A stretch of DNA of 64,000 bases, from the NCBI GenBank assembly GCA_016776505.1, contig JADHTG010000005.1, forward strand, positions 1 to 64,000. Reading direction: 5' to 3'. Both the position numbers and the translations under genes were made by a program. This document shows positions 13,341-21,136 of this stretch, piece after piece (within the stretch, counting starts at the first letter, position 1; each line of letters starts with the position of its first letter). Source of the stretch: Bacteroidota bacterium. GTDB taxonomy: Bacteria; Bacteroidota; Bacteroidia; CAILMK01; JAAYUY01. The notes below the pieces were generated by a model that was not told the DNA's origin, did not search any database, and saw only the letters and a program-made list of their open reading frames with translations.

Positions 13341-15818
13341 TTAGAACTGTTGTCCAATCATTATATGGAATTGCCCCTTACTTGCGCCGGGATTTCCAGG
13401 GATATCATCGAATCCGTAACCCCAGTCAAATCCAAGCAAACCAAACATGGGCATAAATATTCTTACACCGGCTCCTAGTGAACGATAAACACTGAAGGGT
13501 TTAAATTCCTTGAAAGTTAACCAGCTATTTCCGGCTTCAGCGAACACCAATGCATAAATAGTCGCACTCGGATTCAATGAGAATGGATATCGAATCTCAA
13601 AAGTATATTTATTGAAAATTGTTCCACCGTTCTCATTATTGCTGTTTGCAGTCAATGAATTATCTTCATATCCGCGCAAAGCTATTAATTCCCTACCATC
13701 CAGATGATATCCTGACAATCCACTACCTCCAACATAGAATCTTTCAAAAGGCGTAATGCCAATGGCGCTATTGTAAGTTCCAAGGAAACCGAAATCCAAT
13801 CCCACATGAGCCACAAGCTTATCAAATACAGTTAAATACCATGCAGCGCCAAATCGCCATTTATGATATTCCATCCATTTAAATTTCTCTTGTTGGGTGG
13901 CATCCGTAAAATCCTTATCCGAGAACAATGAATAAGGGGGTGAAAATTGAGTTGAAAGCGTAAACGAAGATCCTCTTCGGGGATAGATAGGTGGATCAAC
14001 AGAATTCCTTGCCAGTACAATCTTGGCATTCAGGTTGTTTGAATAACCATCTGTAAAAGCAAACTCGTACTGATAATTATTCAGATTATACCTCTGATAG
14101 GTGAGTGCGGTATAGAGAGTGAAGAAATCATCAGGAATTTTTAAACGTTTGCCTAAACCTATGGTTGCTCCAGTTATTTTAATCTGCTGGAAATTTTCAC
14201 TTTCCTTACTTATCCCATTCGATTGAAAAGACTGGTATAGACTTATAGAGAATGCGTTTGGTTTTCTACCTCCAAACCAGGGTTCAGTAAATGAGAAATT
14301 GAAGGAACTGTAATATCTGGCATTTGATTGAAAACGAATACTTAACCGCTGTCCATCTCCGGCCGGCAAAGGTCTCCAAGCTTTTGCCTTGAACATTTTT
14401 TTTGTTGAGAAGTTCGAGAATACAAATCCCAGGCTGCCAACGAACTGGCCTGCACCCCATCCTCCCTGGAGCTGAAATTGATCGGATGGTTTTTCAACTA
14501 CCTTATATTCCAGTGTCACCGTACCGTTTTCAGGATCAGGAGTCGGAATCACATTCATTTGTTCCGGATCAAAATAACCCAGTTGATTTAACTCTCTTTG
14601 AGATCGAATGATATCGGCCCTGCTAAATTTCTCACCTGGTTTGGTTCTTAATTCCCGCAAAATAACATGATCGCTGGTGCGCAAATTTCCTGAAATAGAA
14701 ATGGAACTTATGGTAGCTTGTGGGCCCTCAAACAGCCTGATTTCCAGATCAATGCTATCATTATCAACAGCAGTTTCCACCGGGACTACCGAAAAGAACA
14801 AATATCCATGGTCCATATAAATTGAAGAAATATCAATTCCTGTAGGACTCATATGAAGTTTCTGTTCCAGCAGCTCCGGATTGTAAATATCTCCCTTTGC
14901 TATTCCCAGAACTGCATCTAACTCAGCAGCAGAATATTTTGTATTACCTGTCCAAACAATATTTCTAAAATAATATTGATTGCCCTCCTCTATTTTTATT
15001 TTAATCCGAATATATTCATTATTAACAAATGATACAGAATCATATACAATTTTTGCATCTCGATAGCCCAGGGAATTATAATGCTGGATGATCCTTTCTT
15101 TATCTTCTTCGTAAAGATTCTCAATATATTTTGAAGATTTGAAAATATTCCATTTTTGATATTGCTTTGTTTTCTTTAACAAGCTTCTGATCTTCCTGCT
15201 TTTAACAATTTCATTTCCTTCTACTATGACTTCCCCGATCCGAATCTTTTTATTTTTATTGATCTTAATATTTAGTTGTACACTGTTTTTTTCAAAAAGA
15301 GTGTCTCCCTTTTCCACAATACTAATGGACGGATTAAAATAACCCTTTTCAACAAAGTATTCTGTAATCTGGTTAGTCACATTCTGCAACAATTGCTGGG
15401 TAACGATTTCTCCCTGTACCAAAGAAATCTTTTCTTTGATCTTATCAACTTCTGATTTTGAGATCCCTTCAAGCGAATACCTGCTTAATCTTGGACGCGT
15501 TTTAACCTCAATAGTCAGGTAAATATTTTCATCAACAAGACTGTCTACATATATTACAATATTTGAAAACAGCTTTTGTTTCCATAAGTTTTTTATGGCC
15601 TGGCTTATTTCATCACCGGGAATATAGACTTCTTTTCCAACGGTCAAACCCGAATAAGCCATTATGATAATCCTATCAATACCAGCGTCACCACTGACAT
15701 TGAGGGCTTGAATCTTATACTTTTTTGGATAGCTATAATCCAGATCTTCGATACTTACCTGAGCAACACTTTTTACACAAAAAAGAGTAATAAATAAAAG
15801 GGCGAATTTAACTTTCAT
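13341..15818 (-). CDS. bamA: Outer membrane protein assembly factor BamA
   Basis: The Omp85 core of the BAM complex that folds beta-barrels into the outer membrane. From the ATG at 15818 (825 residues) there is a signal peptide ending near SVAQ, a run of POTRA domains up to about residue 450, and a C-terminal 16-strand barrel ending in the aromatic FHIMIGQQF. Domain markers include GxxYxxxxl-type POTRA starts and the VRGY-like GYEDNSLT region of loop 6. An in-frame ATG at 15839 is possible. It begins inside uppS and is followed by two Skp genes. Confidence 0.93.
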   Translation of the reverse strand: MKVKFALLFITLFCVKSVAQVSIEDLDYSYPKKYKIQALNVSGDAGIDRIIIMAYSGLTVGKEVYIPGDEISQAIKNLWKQKLFSNIVIYVDSLVDENIYLTIEVKTRPRLSRYSLEGISKSEVDKIKEKISLVQGEIVTQQLLQNVTNQITEYFVEKGYFNPSISIVEKGDTLFEKNSVQLNIKINKNKKIRIGEVIVEGNEIVKSRKIRSLLKKTKQYQKWNIFKSSKYIENLYEEDKERIIQHYNSLGYRDAKIVYDSVSFVNNEYIRIKIKIEEGNQYYFRNIVWTGNTKYSAAELDAVLGIAKGDIYNPELLEQKLHMSPTGIDISSIYMDHGYLFFSVVPVETAVDNDSIDLEIRLFEGPQATISSISISGNLRTSDHVILRELRTKPGEKFSRADIIRSQRELNQLGYFDPEQMNVIPTPDPENGTVTLEYKVVEKPSDQFQLQGGWGAGQFVGSLGFVFSNFSTKKMFKAKAWRPLPAGDGQRLSIRFQSNARYYSSFNFSFTEPWFGGRKPNAFSISLYQSFQSNGISKESENFQQIKITGATIGLGKRLKIPDDFFTLYTALTYQRYNLNNYQYEFAFTDGYSNNLNAKIVLARNSVDPPIYPRRGSSFTLSTQFSPPYSLFSDKDFTDATQQEKFKWMEYHKWRFGAAWYLTVFDKLVAHVGLDFGFLGTYNSAIGITPFERFYVGGSGLSGYHLDGRELIALRGYEDNSLTANSNNENGGTIFNKYTFEIRYPFSLNPSATIYALVFAEAGNSWLTFKEFKPFSVYRSLGAGVRIFMPMFGLLGFDWGYGFDDIPGNPGASKGQFHIMIGQQF

Positions 15819-16563
15819 CATTGGATAATAATTGTTCACTTACTTTACCAAACCTTCTTTCCCGGTTCTGGTAGTCAACAATAGCTTGGTAAAAGTCTTC
15901 TTTTGAAAACTCAGGCCACTTTTTTGAGGTGAAATAAAGCTCTGAGTATGCTAACTCCCAGAGCAAAAAATTGCTGATTCTATATTCTCCGCTAGTCCTG
16001 ATTAACAACTCAGGATCTGGGAAATCAGCTGTTGAAAGGTATGTTTTAAATAAATCTTCAGAAATGGGTTGTTTCTTGCTCAATGAAGAATCATTTTTAA
16101 TTTTTTTAACTGCATTCATTATATCCCAGCGTGAGCTGTAGCTTAAGGCAATCACAACTTTCAGGCCAGTATTGTTCTTTGTTAATTCGATAGCTTTATT
16201 AACTTCACTTAAAGTATTTTTAGGAATAGTATTCAAATCGCCAATGACATGAATTGACACATTGTTTTTATTCAATTCATCTAATTCCTTTCTTATGGTC
16301 ACAATAAGCAAATTCATTAAAGCACTTACTTCTCTTTTAGGCCTTTTCCAGTTTTCCTTTGAAAATGTGTAAAGTGTCAGGTGCTTTAACTTTAATTCAA
16401 CGCTTGCTTCTATAATAAGTCTTACAGTTTTGACACCAGCCTGGTGCCCAAATATGCGGTTTTTATTATGCTCTTTAGCCCATCTTCCGTTGCCATCCAT
16501 AATGATAGCAATATGATTTGGCAATTCCTCTAAATTAACTCTATTTAAATAACTTGGGATCAT
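15808..16563 (-). CDS. uppS: Undecaprenyl diphosphate synthase (cis-prenyltransferase)
   Basis: It condenses isopentenyl diphosphate units onto farnesyl diphosphate to make the C55 carrier lipid for peptidoglycan and O-antigen. The 251 residues show IAIIMDGNGRWA with the catalytic D23 and the diphosphate-binding GNGR (24-27), then HQAG, SRWD and the C-terminal RTSGEYRISNFLLW. Its 3' end overlaps bamA by about 11 nt (28-32 nt with the longer bamA start), so the two are coupled. Confidence 0.94.
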   Translation of the reverse strand: MIPSYLNRVNLEELPNHIAIIMDGNGRWAKEHNKNRIFGHQAGVKTVRLIIEASVELKLKHLTLYTFSKENWKRPKREVSALMNLLIVTIRKELDELNKNNVSIHVIGDLNTIPKNTLSEVNKAIELTKNNTGLKVVIALSYSSRWDIMNAVKKIKNDSSLSKKQPISEDLFKTYLSTADFPDPELLIRTSGEYRISNFLLWELAYSELYFTSKKWPEFSKEDFYQAIVDYQNRERRFGKVSEQLLSNDES

Positions 16564-16593: not shown

Positions 16594-17388
16594 CTAAAAT
16601 TCGAAACAAACCTTGTTCCTGATTTGAAAAGATAAAGTGAGTCCGCTGAATATATACCAATCAATCAGATCAGGTCTTCCTCTTTGTTTTCCAGCCAATC
16701 CAATTGAATTTTCAGATCGATCTGATAATTCTGAAGCTATCGGACCATAGATGTTTTCAAGTACATCAATATTGTAATATGTTGTGCTTACATCATCTAA
16801 ATAATCGGTAAAAGTATATCTAAAACCCACATTAACCGAAACATTAATTGATTTATTCAGTTTAATTTTAAATCCTCCTCCTATAGGTATTGCAAACTGG
16901 TATAATGAATAAGCATTTTTATTTGATTCTATATGAATCCCTTCTGTATCCAGCCCATGAAGCTTAATAAAGTCCCCATTATACAATGTTTTAGGTTGAT
17001 ATATAAATCCGGCTGCTCCGATAAAACTATAAGGAGTGAATTTATTCGGATGCAATCCTAAACCAAAAGGGAAAAAATTGAATTCAAATAAATACGAAAA
17101 CTCCAGAATGCTTGAAGAGAAACTGAGGTTCCTGACTTCCAGGTGCTTGAAATTATTATCATGTGCAGATATCTGACCTTGCATAATACCAAACGCATGA
17201 GATAAAAACGGGTTTACATTTTTCTTGAAAAACAATCCACTCGCCATGTTGGTTTCAGATAAAACAATCTCGGGAGCCAGGTCTCCAAGATAGTTAGTAC
17301 CTCCCATTTGAAAACCTACTTCCCACTTTTGCGCATGGGTAAAAAGTGGTATTATTAGAATCAGTAATGTTAGTTTTCGTTTGAACAT
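16594..17388 (-). CDS. DUF6089 outer-membrane beta-barrel protein, copy 4 of 4
   Basis: A 264-residue secreted protein with signal peptide KRKLTLLILIIPLFTHAQ and a mature start KWEVGFQMGGTNYLGDL, followed by alternating amphipathic strands that suggest an 8- to 10-strand barrel. It has the FTDYLDDVSTTYY segment shared by all four copies and ends in VCFEF, an aromatic C-terminus expected of outer-membrane barrels, with Cys at position -4. It is the most diverged copy (DTEG replaces GTEGQ) and sits next to uppS, the usual place of the single DUF6089 gene in this phylum. Function unknown. Confidence 0.75.
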   Translation of the reverse strand: MFKRKLTLLILIIPLFTHAQKWEVGFQMGGTNYLGDLAPEIVLSETNMASGLFFKKNVNPFLSHAFGIMQGQISAHDNNFKHLEVRNLSFSSSILEFSYLFEFNFFPFGLGLHPNKFTPYSFIGAAGFIYQPKTLYNGDFIKLHGLDTEGIHIESNKNAYSLYQFAIPIGGGFKIKLNKSINVSVNVGFRYTFTDYLDDVSTTYYNIDVLENIYGPIASELSDRSENSIGLAGKQRGRPDLIDWYIFSGLTLSFQIRNKVCFEF

Positions 17389-17451
17389 ACCATTTCTAAT
17401 AACAAAAAATGAGGAAAAATATTATTATTTAATTTAAATTTATTGTTAAAC

Positions 17452-18282
17452 TTAATATCCCAGACAACCTCTGGGCAAGAGTGAATAGCTAAGAGTGAAA
17501 CCGGCAAAATAGTACCAGTCTTTTGCATCAGGACTTCCCCGGCTATCATCCATGGTTTTCTCTATTAATTCGTCATTCACCTCCCCGGTGCGGTTTGACA
17601 ATTTAACTGCTATCTGACCATTTCTATAGAGTAAATCTCTCAAATCAACATAATTCATGCTTACATCATCGAGGTAATCAGTAAATGTTTTGCGGGCACT
17701 GAATTCACATCCCAGGTTCATATTTCTTCCTATTGAATATTTCCAGCCAAAACCGAAGGGGATAACAATTTGAGTGAGCTTGTAACGTCTTTCCTGGTAT
17801 TCAGGAACATTTAGAAACTGCCCTTCAGTTCCAAGGGGTTGCAAATTGGTCCACTTTTCATTGTAATAGGCTTGTGGGTTGAATCTCAATATTGAAACAC
17901 CGGCAAAAATATAGGGAGATGATTTATATGTAAAATGATTGGTACGATAACCCAGGATATTGAATTCTGGCTGAATTCCAATATCCAAAACAGTTGATCT
18001 GAAACTTAAATTACGACTCCATTGTCTGTGATAATATTTTTTAGCATTTTCATCGGAACCGGAAATCATTCCTTTGATAATGTTTCCTTTGATTGTTAAA
18101 TGCCTGTTCATATTGAACCTCATGATGCCACCGTAGGCAAAATGAGTTTCATTCATTTTAATTCCACGTTCTGAAAAGTCACCATTGTAATTGGAAACAC
18201 CACTAAATACTCCTACTTCCCAATACTGGGCATACAAAAAAACGGGCAGGAAAAGAATGGAAAGTAAAATGATCTTTTTCAT
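17452..18282 (-). CDS. DUF6089 outer-membrane beta-barrel protein, copy 3 of 4
   Basis: 276 residues with signal peptide KKIILLSILFLPVFLYAQ, mature start YWEVGVFSGVSNYNGDF, the LQPLGTEGQ and FTDYLDDVS motifs and the C-terminus RGCLGY (Cys at -4, aromatic last residue). It is closest to copy 2. No lipobox is present, so it is expected to be a barrel rather than a lipoprotein. A -7 box at 18307-18314 could give it its own transcript. Function unknown; context with uppS and bamA points to envelope biogenesis. Confidence 0.75.
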   Translation of the reverse strand: MKKIILLSILFLPVFLYAQYWEVGVFSGVSNYNGDFSERGIKMNETHFAYGGIMRFNMNRHLTIKGNIIKGMISGSDENAKKYYHRQWSRNLSFRSTVLDIGIQPEFNILGYRTNHFTYKSSPYIFAGVSILRFNPQAYYNEKWTNLQPLGTEGQFLNVPEYQERRYKLTQIVIPFGFGWKYSIGRNMNLGCEFSARKTFTDYLDDVSMNYVDLRDLLYRNGQIAVKLSNRTGEVNDELIEKTMDDSRGSPDAKDWYYFAGFTLSYSLLPRGCLGY

Positions 18283-18306
18283 AAGACTTTATTTATTTAC
18301 CAAAAA

Positions 18307-18314
18307 CAAAGATA
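18307..18314 (-). promoter_or_regulatory. Bacteroidota -7 box before DUF6089 copy 3
   Basis: The minus strand reads TATCTTTG, 25 nt before the ATG at 18282, within the 101-bp gap between copies 2 and 3. No -33 TTTG was found at the right distance. Confidence 0.4.
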
Positions 18315-18383
18315 TATTAATTTTATGCAATAAAATCCAGAAAAAGCAATAAAATCAATGGAATTCAGACTAAAAGAGATTGA

Positions 18384-19232
18384 CTAAAATCTATAACATG
18401 CGTTTGGTAAAATAGAATATGAAATAGTAAAACCAGTGAAGAAGTATGCATCATTATTTGTTGGATCACCTCTGTCATCTGATGGACCATATTCGATTCT
18501 TTCATTCAGTACTTCACCTGAGCGGTTAGAAAGTACATCTGCAATAGGAACACTTACTCCGTTTATTAAAACTGAGCCGTGAGTAGCAATTAAAATATCT
18601 GATTCAATGAAAGTTTTACTTACATCATCAAGATAATCAGTAAAAGTTACCCTGTATCCAAACTCAAATCCAACATTCCAATATCTGCTTAATGCATATT
18701 TCCACCCAAATCCAAGGGGAATACATAACTGGGTCAATGCATATTTATCCCTGTCGTTGTATTTTGTTGTCCCCTGGCCTTCAGTTCCAAGGGGTTGCAG
18801 GTTAAACCACTCTCCTAAATACTCTGCTTTCGGATTAAATCGAAAGACTGATACACCAAAAAGCAAATAAGGAGAGTTATTGTATCTGGGATGAGGAGAA
18901 CTGTAGCCAATCAGGTTGATCTCGCTTTGTACACCTATATCTAAAAGAGATGAATTAAAACTCAGGTTACGTGCCTTGCGATCAAATGTGGATGCATTGG
19001 CATCATTGCCGGATATGGTACCGTAAAAACCATTCACTTTGACAGTAAACCATTGATTTACATTATATCTGACTATTGCTCCAGTGGCAGGGTGAAGTTC
19101 TTTGAAATCAATTCCTGATTGAACCAGGTCACCAGTGTATCCACTAACTCCTCCAAATAAACCTACCTCCCAATACTGTGAACTTGAAATTAGTGGGGAA
19201 ACCAGTAGGATTACAAATAGGAGTTTTCGCAC
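18384..19232 (-). CDS. DUF6089 outer-membrane beta-barrel protein, copy 2 of 4
   Basis: 282 residues with signal peptide ending SSSQ, mature start YWEVGLFGGVSGYTGDL, LQPLGTEGQG, FTDYLDDVSKTF and the C-terminus PNACYRF (Cys at -4, terminal Phe). The alternating hydrophobic pattern fits a small barrel. It starts 15 nt after copy 1 and should share its transcript. It is very similar in layout to copy 3, which suggests a local duplication. Function unknown. Confidence 0.75.
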   Translation of the reverse strand: MRKLLFVILLVSPLISSSQYWEVGLFGGVSGYTGDLVQSGIDFKELHPATGAIVRYNVNQWFTVKVNGFYGTISGNDANASTFDRKARNLSFNSSLLDIGVQSEINLIGYSSPHPRYNNSPYLLFGVSVFRFNPKAEYLGEWFNLQPLGTEGQGTTKYNDRDKYALTQLCIPLGFGWKYALSRYWNVGFEFGYRVTFTDYLDDVSKTFIESDILIATHGSVLINGVSVPIADVLSNRSGEVLNERIEYGPSDDRGDPTNNDAYFFTGFTISYSILPNACYRF

Positions 19233-19247
19233 GTAAATAATAATTTC

Positions 19248-20132
19248 TTAGAAACAGAAACAGGTATTATTTCTGAAAGTTTTTGATATGGAGAAACCAA
19301 ACCACATATAGGCATCCATTTGTTCGGGGTGACCTCTTTCAAAACCTGTGGGATAATTAGGGGTAAATACACCACCTGCAAGTGTACCTAATCTATCTGA
19401 AAGTTGAACTGTTATGGCATCTTCAGGATCAGATAAATTAAAGTCGTTATTATAATCCGGATAATAGCCTCCAAAATCATCTAAATGATCAGTAAAAGTT
19501 TTATTCTGGCTGACATAGAGTGCAATATTCCACAAATAAAGATTAAGCTGTTTACTGCTTCTTGGTCGTTTAAAGCTATATTTAATTCCGAAGCCGTATG
19601 GGATTGAAATTTGAGTCAATGCATATTTAGGCTCGTATCCGGGCCGTCCCTGGCCTTCCGTCCCACGAGGCTGGAGTTCATATACCACCCCGTTTAATTC
19701 CCCTTTGGGATTGAAATTAAAAACACTAACACCGGTAAAAATATAGGGTGACCAGTTTCTTAATTTATTTCCGGCAATATAGGGTAGAATATTGTATTCC
19801 ATCTGTGCATGAATATCTAATAAATGAGACTTAAACTGGGCTTCCCGATTCCATGCTGCACCATCCTGCTGAGGATCTTTATCCCCGTCATATCCTTCAA
19901 TATTGCCATAGTATACTCCCCCTTTGAAGTTAAACCTGGGAGTAAAATAATATCTAAAAAAGGCTCCACCTCCGAGTTTACTTTCATTCCAGGAGACATG
20001 TTTCCAGGTAAGATCACCCAAATACTCTGTAACCCCCAGGTATACACCGATTTCTTTATCTTGGGAATAAACATTGGAATTCATTCCTAATACAAAAATC
20101 ATCGCAATAAATACTTTCAATAATTGTTTCAT
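19248..20132 (-). CDS. DUF6089 outer-membrane beta-barrel protein, copy 1 of 4
   Basis: 294 residues from the ATG at 20132, with signal peptide KQLLKVFIAMIFVLG...YSQ, mature start KEIGVYLGVTEYLGDL, LQPRGTEGQG, FTDHLDDFGGYY and the C-terminus NNTCFCF (Cys at -4 and -2). It is the longest copy, with an added loop rich in Asp and Asn around FNLSDPEDA. The frame opens to 20222, but that start lies upstream of a well-formed promoter (20162-20192), so it is rejected. It leads the tandem array. Function unknown. Confidence 0.75.
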   Translation of the reverse strand: MKQLLKVFIAMIFVLGMNSNVYSQDKEIGVYLGVTEYLGDLTWKHVSWNESKLGGGAFFRYYFTPRFNFKGGVYYGNIEGYDGDKDPQQDGAAWNREAQFKSHLLDIHAQMEYNILPYIAGNKLRNWSPYIFTGVSVFNFNPKGELNGVVYELQPRGTEGQGRPGYEPKYALTQISIPYGFGIKYSFKRPRSSKQLNLYLWNIALYVSQNKTFTDHLDDFGGYYPDYNNDFNLSDPEDAITVQLSDRLGTLAGGVFTPNYPTGFERGHPEQMDAYMWFGFSISKTFRNNTCFCF

Positions 20133-20161: not shown

Positions 20162-20192
20162 CAAAAATAACACAGAATTGACTTATAACAAA
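20162..20192 (-). promoter_or_regulatory. Promoter of the DUF6089 array
   Basis: On the minus strand TTTG (20192-20189) is followed by a 19-nt spacer and TATTTTTG (20169-20162). Both elements and the spacing match the Bacteroidota sigma consensus. The ATG at 20132 lies about 23 nt from the expected transcript start. Confidence 0.65.
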
Positions 20193-20214
20193 AATAAAAC
20201 AAATTTTTAATATC

Positions 20215-21099
20215 TCAAACATTTCTGTAGTCGATTCCCCAACTCAGCTTTTCCCTGATTATTTCACTGAATTTCTGTTCATTAAGTCTTACGGTTTGTA
20301 AGTTGAAATCAGCTTTTCTTAATTTTAATTTATATGTTTGATCTACAATTTTATACCTTGAATCGAGAGCCACAATAAACTCTTTATCCCGGCTCATTAT
20401 TTCAAAAGACAATTCCACATGATCTGGGACGATAACAGGTCTTACATTTAGATTATGAGGTGCGACAGGCGTTATAACAAAGTTTTTTGACTCAGGATAA
20501 ACAATTGGCCCCCCACAACTCATAGAATAAGCTGTTGATCCTGTAGGGGTTGAGACAATTAAACCATCTCCCCAATATTTGTTAAAAAAATCACCATTCA
20601 AAAATGTGGTAATAGCAGTTAAGGATGAATTATCCCTCTTGTGAATCGTAAAATCATTTAATGCAAAATTATCCTCTTTAAATAAAGAGGTTTTTGATTT
20701 TAATTCTATGACCGAGCGACTTTCCAGGGAATATTGTTTATTTATTAAGCAAAAAATAATTTGATCCAAATCTTCCACCAAATTATTAGCCAGAAATCCC
20801 AGGCGACCAGTATTGATGCCAATAACAGGTATATTTGAATTTTTTACAAAAATTAAGGTGTTTAAAAAAGTCCCATCGCCGCCAATACTAATGATAAAAT
20901 CTACCCGGTTCTCAATAAGGTCTGAATGATTTTCTAAGATATTGTTTTTTATATCATAAGCTACTAAATGCTCAAGAGGTTTTTCAAAATTTGTATGAAA
21001 CATAATTTCAATTTTATTCTCAATTAGCTTATTTATTACCGTGGAATAAATTTGAATATGATCGTTGAGATTTCCTTTTGAAAAAAGAGCTACTTTCAT
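20215..21099 (-). CDS. nadK: NAD kinase
   Basis: It phosphorylates NAD to NADP in the cytoplasm. From the ATG at 21099 the protein has 294 residues, with the family GGDGTFLN (73-80), the NTGRLGFL motif around 100 and the GSTAYSMSCGGPIVYP segment that binds NAD. A TTG 12 nt further upstream is the only longer start and is unlikely. It heads the minus-strand envelope cluster and overlaps none of its neighbours once the DUF6089 start is set to 20132. Confidence 0.93.
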   Translation of the reverse strand: MKVALFSKGNLNDHIQIYSTVINKLIENKIEIMFHTNFEKPLEHLVAYDIKNNILENHSDLIENRVDFIISIGGDGTFLNTLIFVKNSNIPVIGINTGRLGFLANNLVEDLDQIIFCLINKQYSLESRSVIELKSKTSLFKEDNFALNDFTIHKRDNSSLTAITTFLNGDFFNKYWGDGLIVSTPTGSTAYSMSCGGPIVYPESKNFVITPVAPHNLNVRPVIVPDHVELSFEIMSRDKEFIVALDSRYKIVDQTYKLKLRKADFNLQTVRLNEQKFSEIIREKLSWGIDYRNV

Positions 21100-21136
21100 T
21101 TTATCATGCAATGCTTAATTTATATTCTTCCTGCTT

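Follow-up and report, generated by a model that had tools for sequence, protein, structure and literature searches.

The closest described relatives of the proteins studied here are the PorG proteins of the type IX secretion system (T9SS), namely P. gingivalis PG0189 and F. johnsoniae Fjoh_1692 (PMC12635249). The C-terminal tail of F. johnsoniae PorG carries a CxC motif that forms a disulfide with Cys343 of GldK (Liu 2025, PMC12635249), and the CxC tail of SprF, the carrier of the gliding adhesin SprB, bonds the same GldK cysteine; in P. gingivalis, PorG depends on the one cysteine of its tail (PMC12635249). From these single-copy species, the 2025 work proposes a role for PorG in passing the track's force on to the translocon (PMC12635249). 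In F. johnsoniae, porG and skpA have been described as T9SS genes at the bamA locus (PMC12611786). A search of the open-access literature, in which absence is not proof, found no paper with the term DUF6089 and, on PorG paralogues and copy number, no description of PorG arrays.

The locus described here resembles those of P. gingivalis and F. johnsoniae in protein family (NF052316, PF19573), in its place beside bamA, in the predicted eight-stranded barrel and in the combination of a C-tail cysteine with a GldK that has the partner cysteine. It differs in that four paralogues stand in tandem here and one there, and in that copy 4 falls under the equivalog cut-off of the PorG model.

A four-gene PorG array at the uppS-bamA locus

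The window, a stretch of 64,000 nucleotides, contains four consecutive DUF6089 genes on the minus strand (16594-20132; Table 1). They are flanked by nadK on one side and by uppS, bamA and two ompH genes on the other, in the order nadK-PorG4-3-2-1-uppS-bamA-ompH. Open reading frames and Pfam matches bear out the initial annotation, which had placed four paralogues of 264-294 residues between nadK and uppS. A search of the whole genome, a draft of 3.3 Mb that is 92.8% complete, returned these four DUF6089 matches only. Relatives with a single PorG gene have it at this uppS-bamA position too.

All four products exceeded the gathering score of Pfam DUF6089 (PF19573, 23.2 bits). Against NF052316, the curated NCBIfam model for the type IX secretion system protein PorG (equivalog cut-off 130 bits), copies 1-3 scored above the cut-off and copy 4 below it. 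Judged by these scores, copies 1-3 are securely PorG and copy 4 is a borderline member. PorG1 is most likely the counterpart of the canonical single-copy PorG. Membership of the PorP/SprF family was rejected for all four copies, with no TIGR03519 match at E values up to 0.1. That the DUF6089 family is PorG, and that every copy bears a cysteine in its C-terminal tail, goes beyond what the initial annotation had noticed.

PorG2 and PorG3 were 50% identical and every other pair 30-38%, which confirms that these two form the closest pair, as had been claimed. The signal peptides, FTD(Y/H)LDD motif and aromatic C-termini that had been ascribed to all copies were likewise present: signal-like N-terminal segments could be read from each sequence, FTDYLDD or FTDHLDD occurred in all four, and the last residues of copies 1-4 were F, Y, F and F.

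PorG4 is the first gene of the array in the direction of transcription. Gaps of 82 bp from nadK to PorG4 and then of 15, 101, 63 and 30 bp down to uppS separate the genes. Directly before PorG4 lie two overlapping promoter-like sites, which make up two of the three matches to this pattern on the minus strand of the 64-kb window; a sigma-70 promoter scan performed no better than on shuffled sequences. A link of the array to carrier-lipid synthesis and BamA had also been suggested. This was not upheld, its evidence being gene order, and the F. johnsoniae bamA locus also has the T9SS genes porG and skpA (PMC12611786).

Table 1. Features of the PorG array and its neighbours, in positions of the window
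Feature	Position	Strand	Evidence
bamA, downstream neighbour	13341..15839	-	ORF; same order in relatives
uppS, downstream neighbour	15808..16563	-	PF01255 283 bits
PorG1 (uppS-proximal copy, 264 aa)	16594..17388	-	PF19573 112.1 bits; NF052316 168.7 bits; 8-stranded AlphaFold2 model, pLDDT 91.4
PorG1 C-tail Cys261 codon	16606..16608	-	Sequence; sole cysteine of PorG1
PorG2 (276 aa)	17452..18282	-	PF19573 79.5 bits; NF052316 165.2 bits
PorG2 C-tail Cys273 codon (RGCLGY)	17464..17466	-	Sequence; aligned cysteine column
PorG3 (282 aa, GTG start), sister of PorG2	18384..19232	-	PF19573 76.3 bits; NF052316 158.6 bits; 50% identity to PorG2
PorG3 C-tail Cys279 codon (NACYRF)	18396..18398	-	Invariant column, alignment A1
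PorG4 (nadK-proximal copy, 294 aa)	19248..20132	-	PF19573 53.2 bits; NF052316 122.0 bits; 8-stranded AlphaFold2 model, pLDDT 89.0
PorG4 C-tail Cys291-Phe-Cys293 (CxC) codons	19254..19262	-	Sequence; TCFCF in all four family genomes
Two overlapping Bacteroidota-type promoter-like sites (TTG-N17-23-TAnnTTTG), upstream of PorG4	20162..20218	-	Consensus match only
nadK, upstream neighbour	20215..21111	-	PF20143 and PF01513

Predicted barrels and tail cysteines

The structures of copies 1 and 4 were predicted with AlphaFold2 from alignments of 41 and 35 related sequences, respectively, whose rows were hand-chosen (A2, A3). Both models were eight-stranded barrels (mean pLDDT in Table 1), as the proposed outer-membrane barrel demanded; the fold of copies 2 and 3 was judged from the alignment. 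In both models the eight residues after the last strand form the C-tail (residues 257-264 after strand 8 in PorG1), which is predicted to be short and periplasmic. The conserved TEG and FTDYLDD motifs map to long loops 3 and 4 of the PorG1 model, on the side opposite to the tail. When PorG1 was compared with PDB sequences by phmmer, no relative of solved structure came up. By structure, the best solved matches in Foldseek were OmpA, Ail and OmpW, all small eight-stranded barrels that share the topology but only 6-15% of sequence identity. We know of no GldK-binding cysteine tail in these barrels.

The C-tails read KVCFEF in PorG1, RGCLGY in PorG2, NACYRF in PorG3 and NTCFCF in PorG4. Copies 1-3 thus have a single tail cysteine, like P. 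gingivalis PorG, whereas copy 4 has a CxC, like F. johnsoniae PorG. Among aligned tails of complete arrays, counted independently of the hand-chosen folding alignments, the cysteine was retained in 41/41 single or uppS-proximal copies, in 14/15 middle copies and in 15/26 nadK-proximal copies. Ten of the 11 nadK-proximal copies without it, together with the lone Cys-less middle copy, formed two neighbouring clades on the tree. The Cys-less nadK-proximal lineage occurs in several relatives (L089:9014-9973, L093:4972-5931, L117:7756-8712, L162:3781-4854 and others); its tails are basic (RTTRKGLPKF and FHKAKFR, for example), and the two copies scanned scored 92.7 and 104.3 bits, under the PorG cut-off. 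Track attachment is therefore not universal among PorG paralogues. Since the cysteine was lost in one nadK-proximal lineage, its retention is not automatic, and its presence in all four copies here is informative. The CxC among nadK-proximal copies on the tree is limited to the source family, neighbouring families having SCKDF and SCSNF, and so was probably gained separately from the CxC of F. johnsoniae.

PorG-family genes were also seen in six Saprospiraceae and related loci with no uppS locus in view. They share a GCPTF or GCDF tail after a basic, glycine-rich stretch, with the cysteine kept, and appear to be an orphan lineage; the one scanned scored 169.9 bits against the PorG model.

Copy number and age of the lineages

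In 4/4 genomes examined from the source family, the order nadK-PorG4-PorG3-PorG2-PorG1-uppS-bamA was found with 1:1 orthologues. Forty other arrays in which nadK and uppS could both be seen, a non-random sample drawn from a search of relatives, a scan for the DUF6089 motif and hand-picked genomes, had one copy (n=15), two (n=15), three (n=7) or four (n=3), and the three with four copies all came from the source family. A genome of another family also had four copies before uppS, with nadK outside the view. In one large family of the phylum sample there was a single high-scoring copy almost throughout, with tails, among the three examined, such as NKPCYCPY. PorG copy number thus varies over the phylum and is constant within the source family. 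The initial annotation had treated the four copies as an expansion, a reading that would fall if relatives had four as standard: they do so within the family, but across the phylum one to three are usual.

We considered secretome size as an explanation of copy number. PorG matches correlated weakly with T9SS cargo candidates (Spearman 0.37, 50 genomes, kinship ignored), a first-look proxy for cargo load taken in place of sorting-domain counts, which had a ceiling of 80 per genome; the explanation was rejected.

On a tree built from 82 PorGs of complete arrays, copies grouped by position. The uppS-proximal copies of several families fell together (support 98/93), as did the nadK-proximal copies (96/95) and, with moderate support, the middle copies (89/89). 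These groups indicate that PorG1, PorG2/3 and PorG4 date back at least to the divergence of several families of the class. On this tree the array comprises at least three lineages, common to other families of the class, and the split of PorG2 from PorG3 is placed later than the others, within the order. Recent duplication, or expansion for dosage, is rejected by the tree, by the identities (30-50%) and by synteny.

Compared with a congener, each of the four copies had diverged little at non-synonymous sites: pN was 0.085-0.127 for them, 0.088 for bamA and 0.200 for nadK; synonymous sites were near saturation and ratios are therefore rough. Within each paralogue group the C-tail was the region most often fixed (mean 0.69, in four genomes of one family), nearly equalled by the b6 region (0.68), and it differed between groups.

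One GldK track and the role of the four copies

Exactly one GldK above the cut-off was found in the genome. Its Cys308 (NSKGCF) lies in an alignment column that is cysteine in 13/13 GldK sequences, and its gene neighbours encode GldN, GldM, GldL and a PorP-family protein. A GldJ-like lipoprotein is encoded elsewhere, with GldJ as its best match at a score under the GldJ cut-off, and SprA is present (2519 bits). With 133 matches to T9SS C-terminal sorting domains (CTDs) in the 3.3-Mb draft, the predicted T9SS secretome is very rich. One GldK paralogue for each PorG was rejected as a possibility, given the single GldK above the cut-off. In three of seven PorP-family regions examined, the protein has a cysteine a few residues from its terminus (TCPDF, PCERY and ICPGF). 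SprF, of the PorP/SprF family (TIGR03519), likewise has a C-tail cysteine, and these three SprF-like proteins may also be linked to the track; the four PorGs, without a TIGR03519 match, belong to a separate family. The single GldK and the Cys-tailed PorGs and PorPs suggest that as many as four PorGs and three SprF-like carriers may share one track.

We think it likely that the four paralogous PorGs ride one track with divided roles. By homology with the F. johnsoniae and P. gingivalis proteins, the tail of each barrel would point into the periplasm and its cysteine would be disulfide-bonded to Cys308, the only exposed cysteine of GldK. The barrel would then be drawn along the GldJKN track by the action of GldLM and would push on the translocon or on loaded carriers. 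PorG1 would act as the canonical PorG, while PorG2-4 would serve other steps, carriers or track positions, all four drawing on one GldK track. With a single cysteine, as in P. gingivalis, copies 1-3 would depend on an external oxidant. In copy 4 the CxC could itself be the disulfide donor and make attachment reversible, a scheme proposed for PorG and SprF of F. johnsoniae. Both the T9SS assignment and the ancient, separate lineages favour divergence into subunits of a complex, one of two outcomes that the initial annotation had offered. Division of labour is most likely the best account of four distinct copies being kept; which step or carrier each copy serves is not readable from sequence.

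The other outcome was a need for dosage, with several near-equivalent PorGs giving more barrel for a heavy secretion load. The 133 CTD matches and the weak positive correlation with cargo candidates point this way, and more PorG is conceivable (cf. PMC12635249). The copies are, however, unlike each other: they are 30-50% identical, belong to ancient lineages with paralogue-specific tails and are each kept as a 1:1 orthologue, which makes dosage very improbable. PorG2-4 might instead stand outside the T9SS now, as ordinary small surface barrels with a tail kept by descent. The sub-cut-off scores (93-104 bits) of the Cys-less nadK-proximal lineage in other families suggest that some paralogues may indeed be off the track, but in the source family the tails of all copies are nearly fixed and contain the cysteine, and its partner in GldK is retained. 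We regard such a departure as quite unlikely here.

The four PorGs could also be parts of a single mixed pusher or track guide, built from all of them or from fixed pairs, with each needed for the same step. Such an assembly would fit the conserved order, the common strand, the short gaps (15-101 bp) and the retention of all four in the family. Middle and nadK-proximal copies also recur together in several families. Many relatives, however, have just one or two copies, and in the published AF3 model PorG contacts the ring through its tail only (PMC12635249). A mixed assembly seems unlikely, if less so than the two preceding explanations. Divided roles on one track, our preferred reading, could extend beyond this genome. 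Tentatively, PorG might be a family of specialised riders and not one component: three or four ancient types would share one GldK track and each would pass force to a different class of carrier or a different step, and the chemistry of the tail (one Cys, CxC or none) would set the firmness and reversibility of attachment.

The array offers a natural set of paralogues with distinct conserved tails and the same GldK, and thereby a handle on which part of PorG governs attachment, reversibility and target. Several old lineages go under the automatic label PorG, one of them lacking the attaching cysteine. Three fairly complete relatives have GldK and no DUF6089/PorG match; PorG is possibly divergent or absent in them. 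The GldKs of two loci from one family of the same order as the source have a second cysteine three residues beyond the track cysteine (RGCFLC), which is absent from the other GldKs in the alignment.
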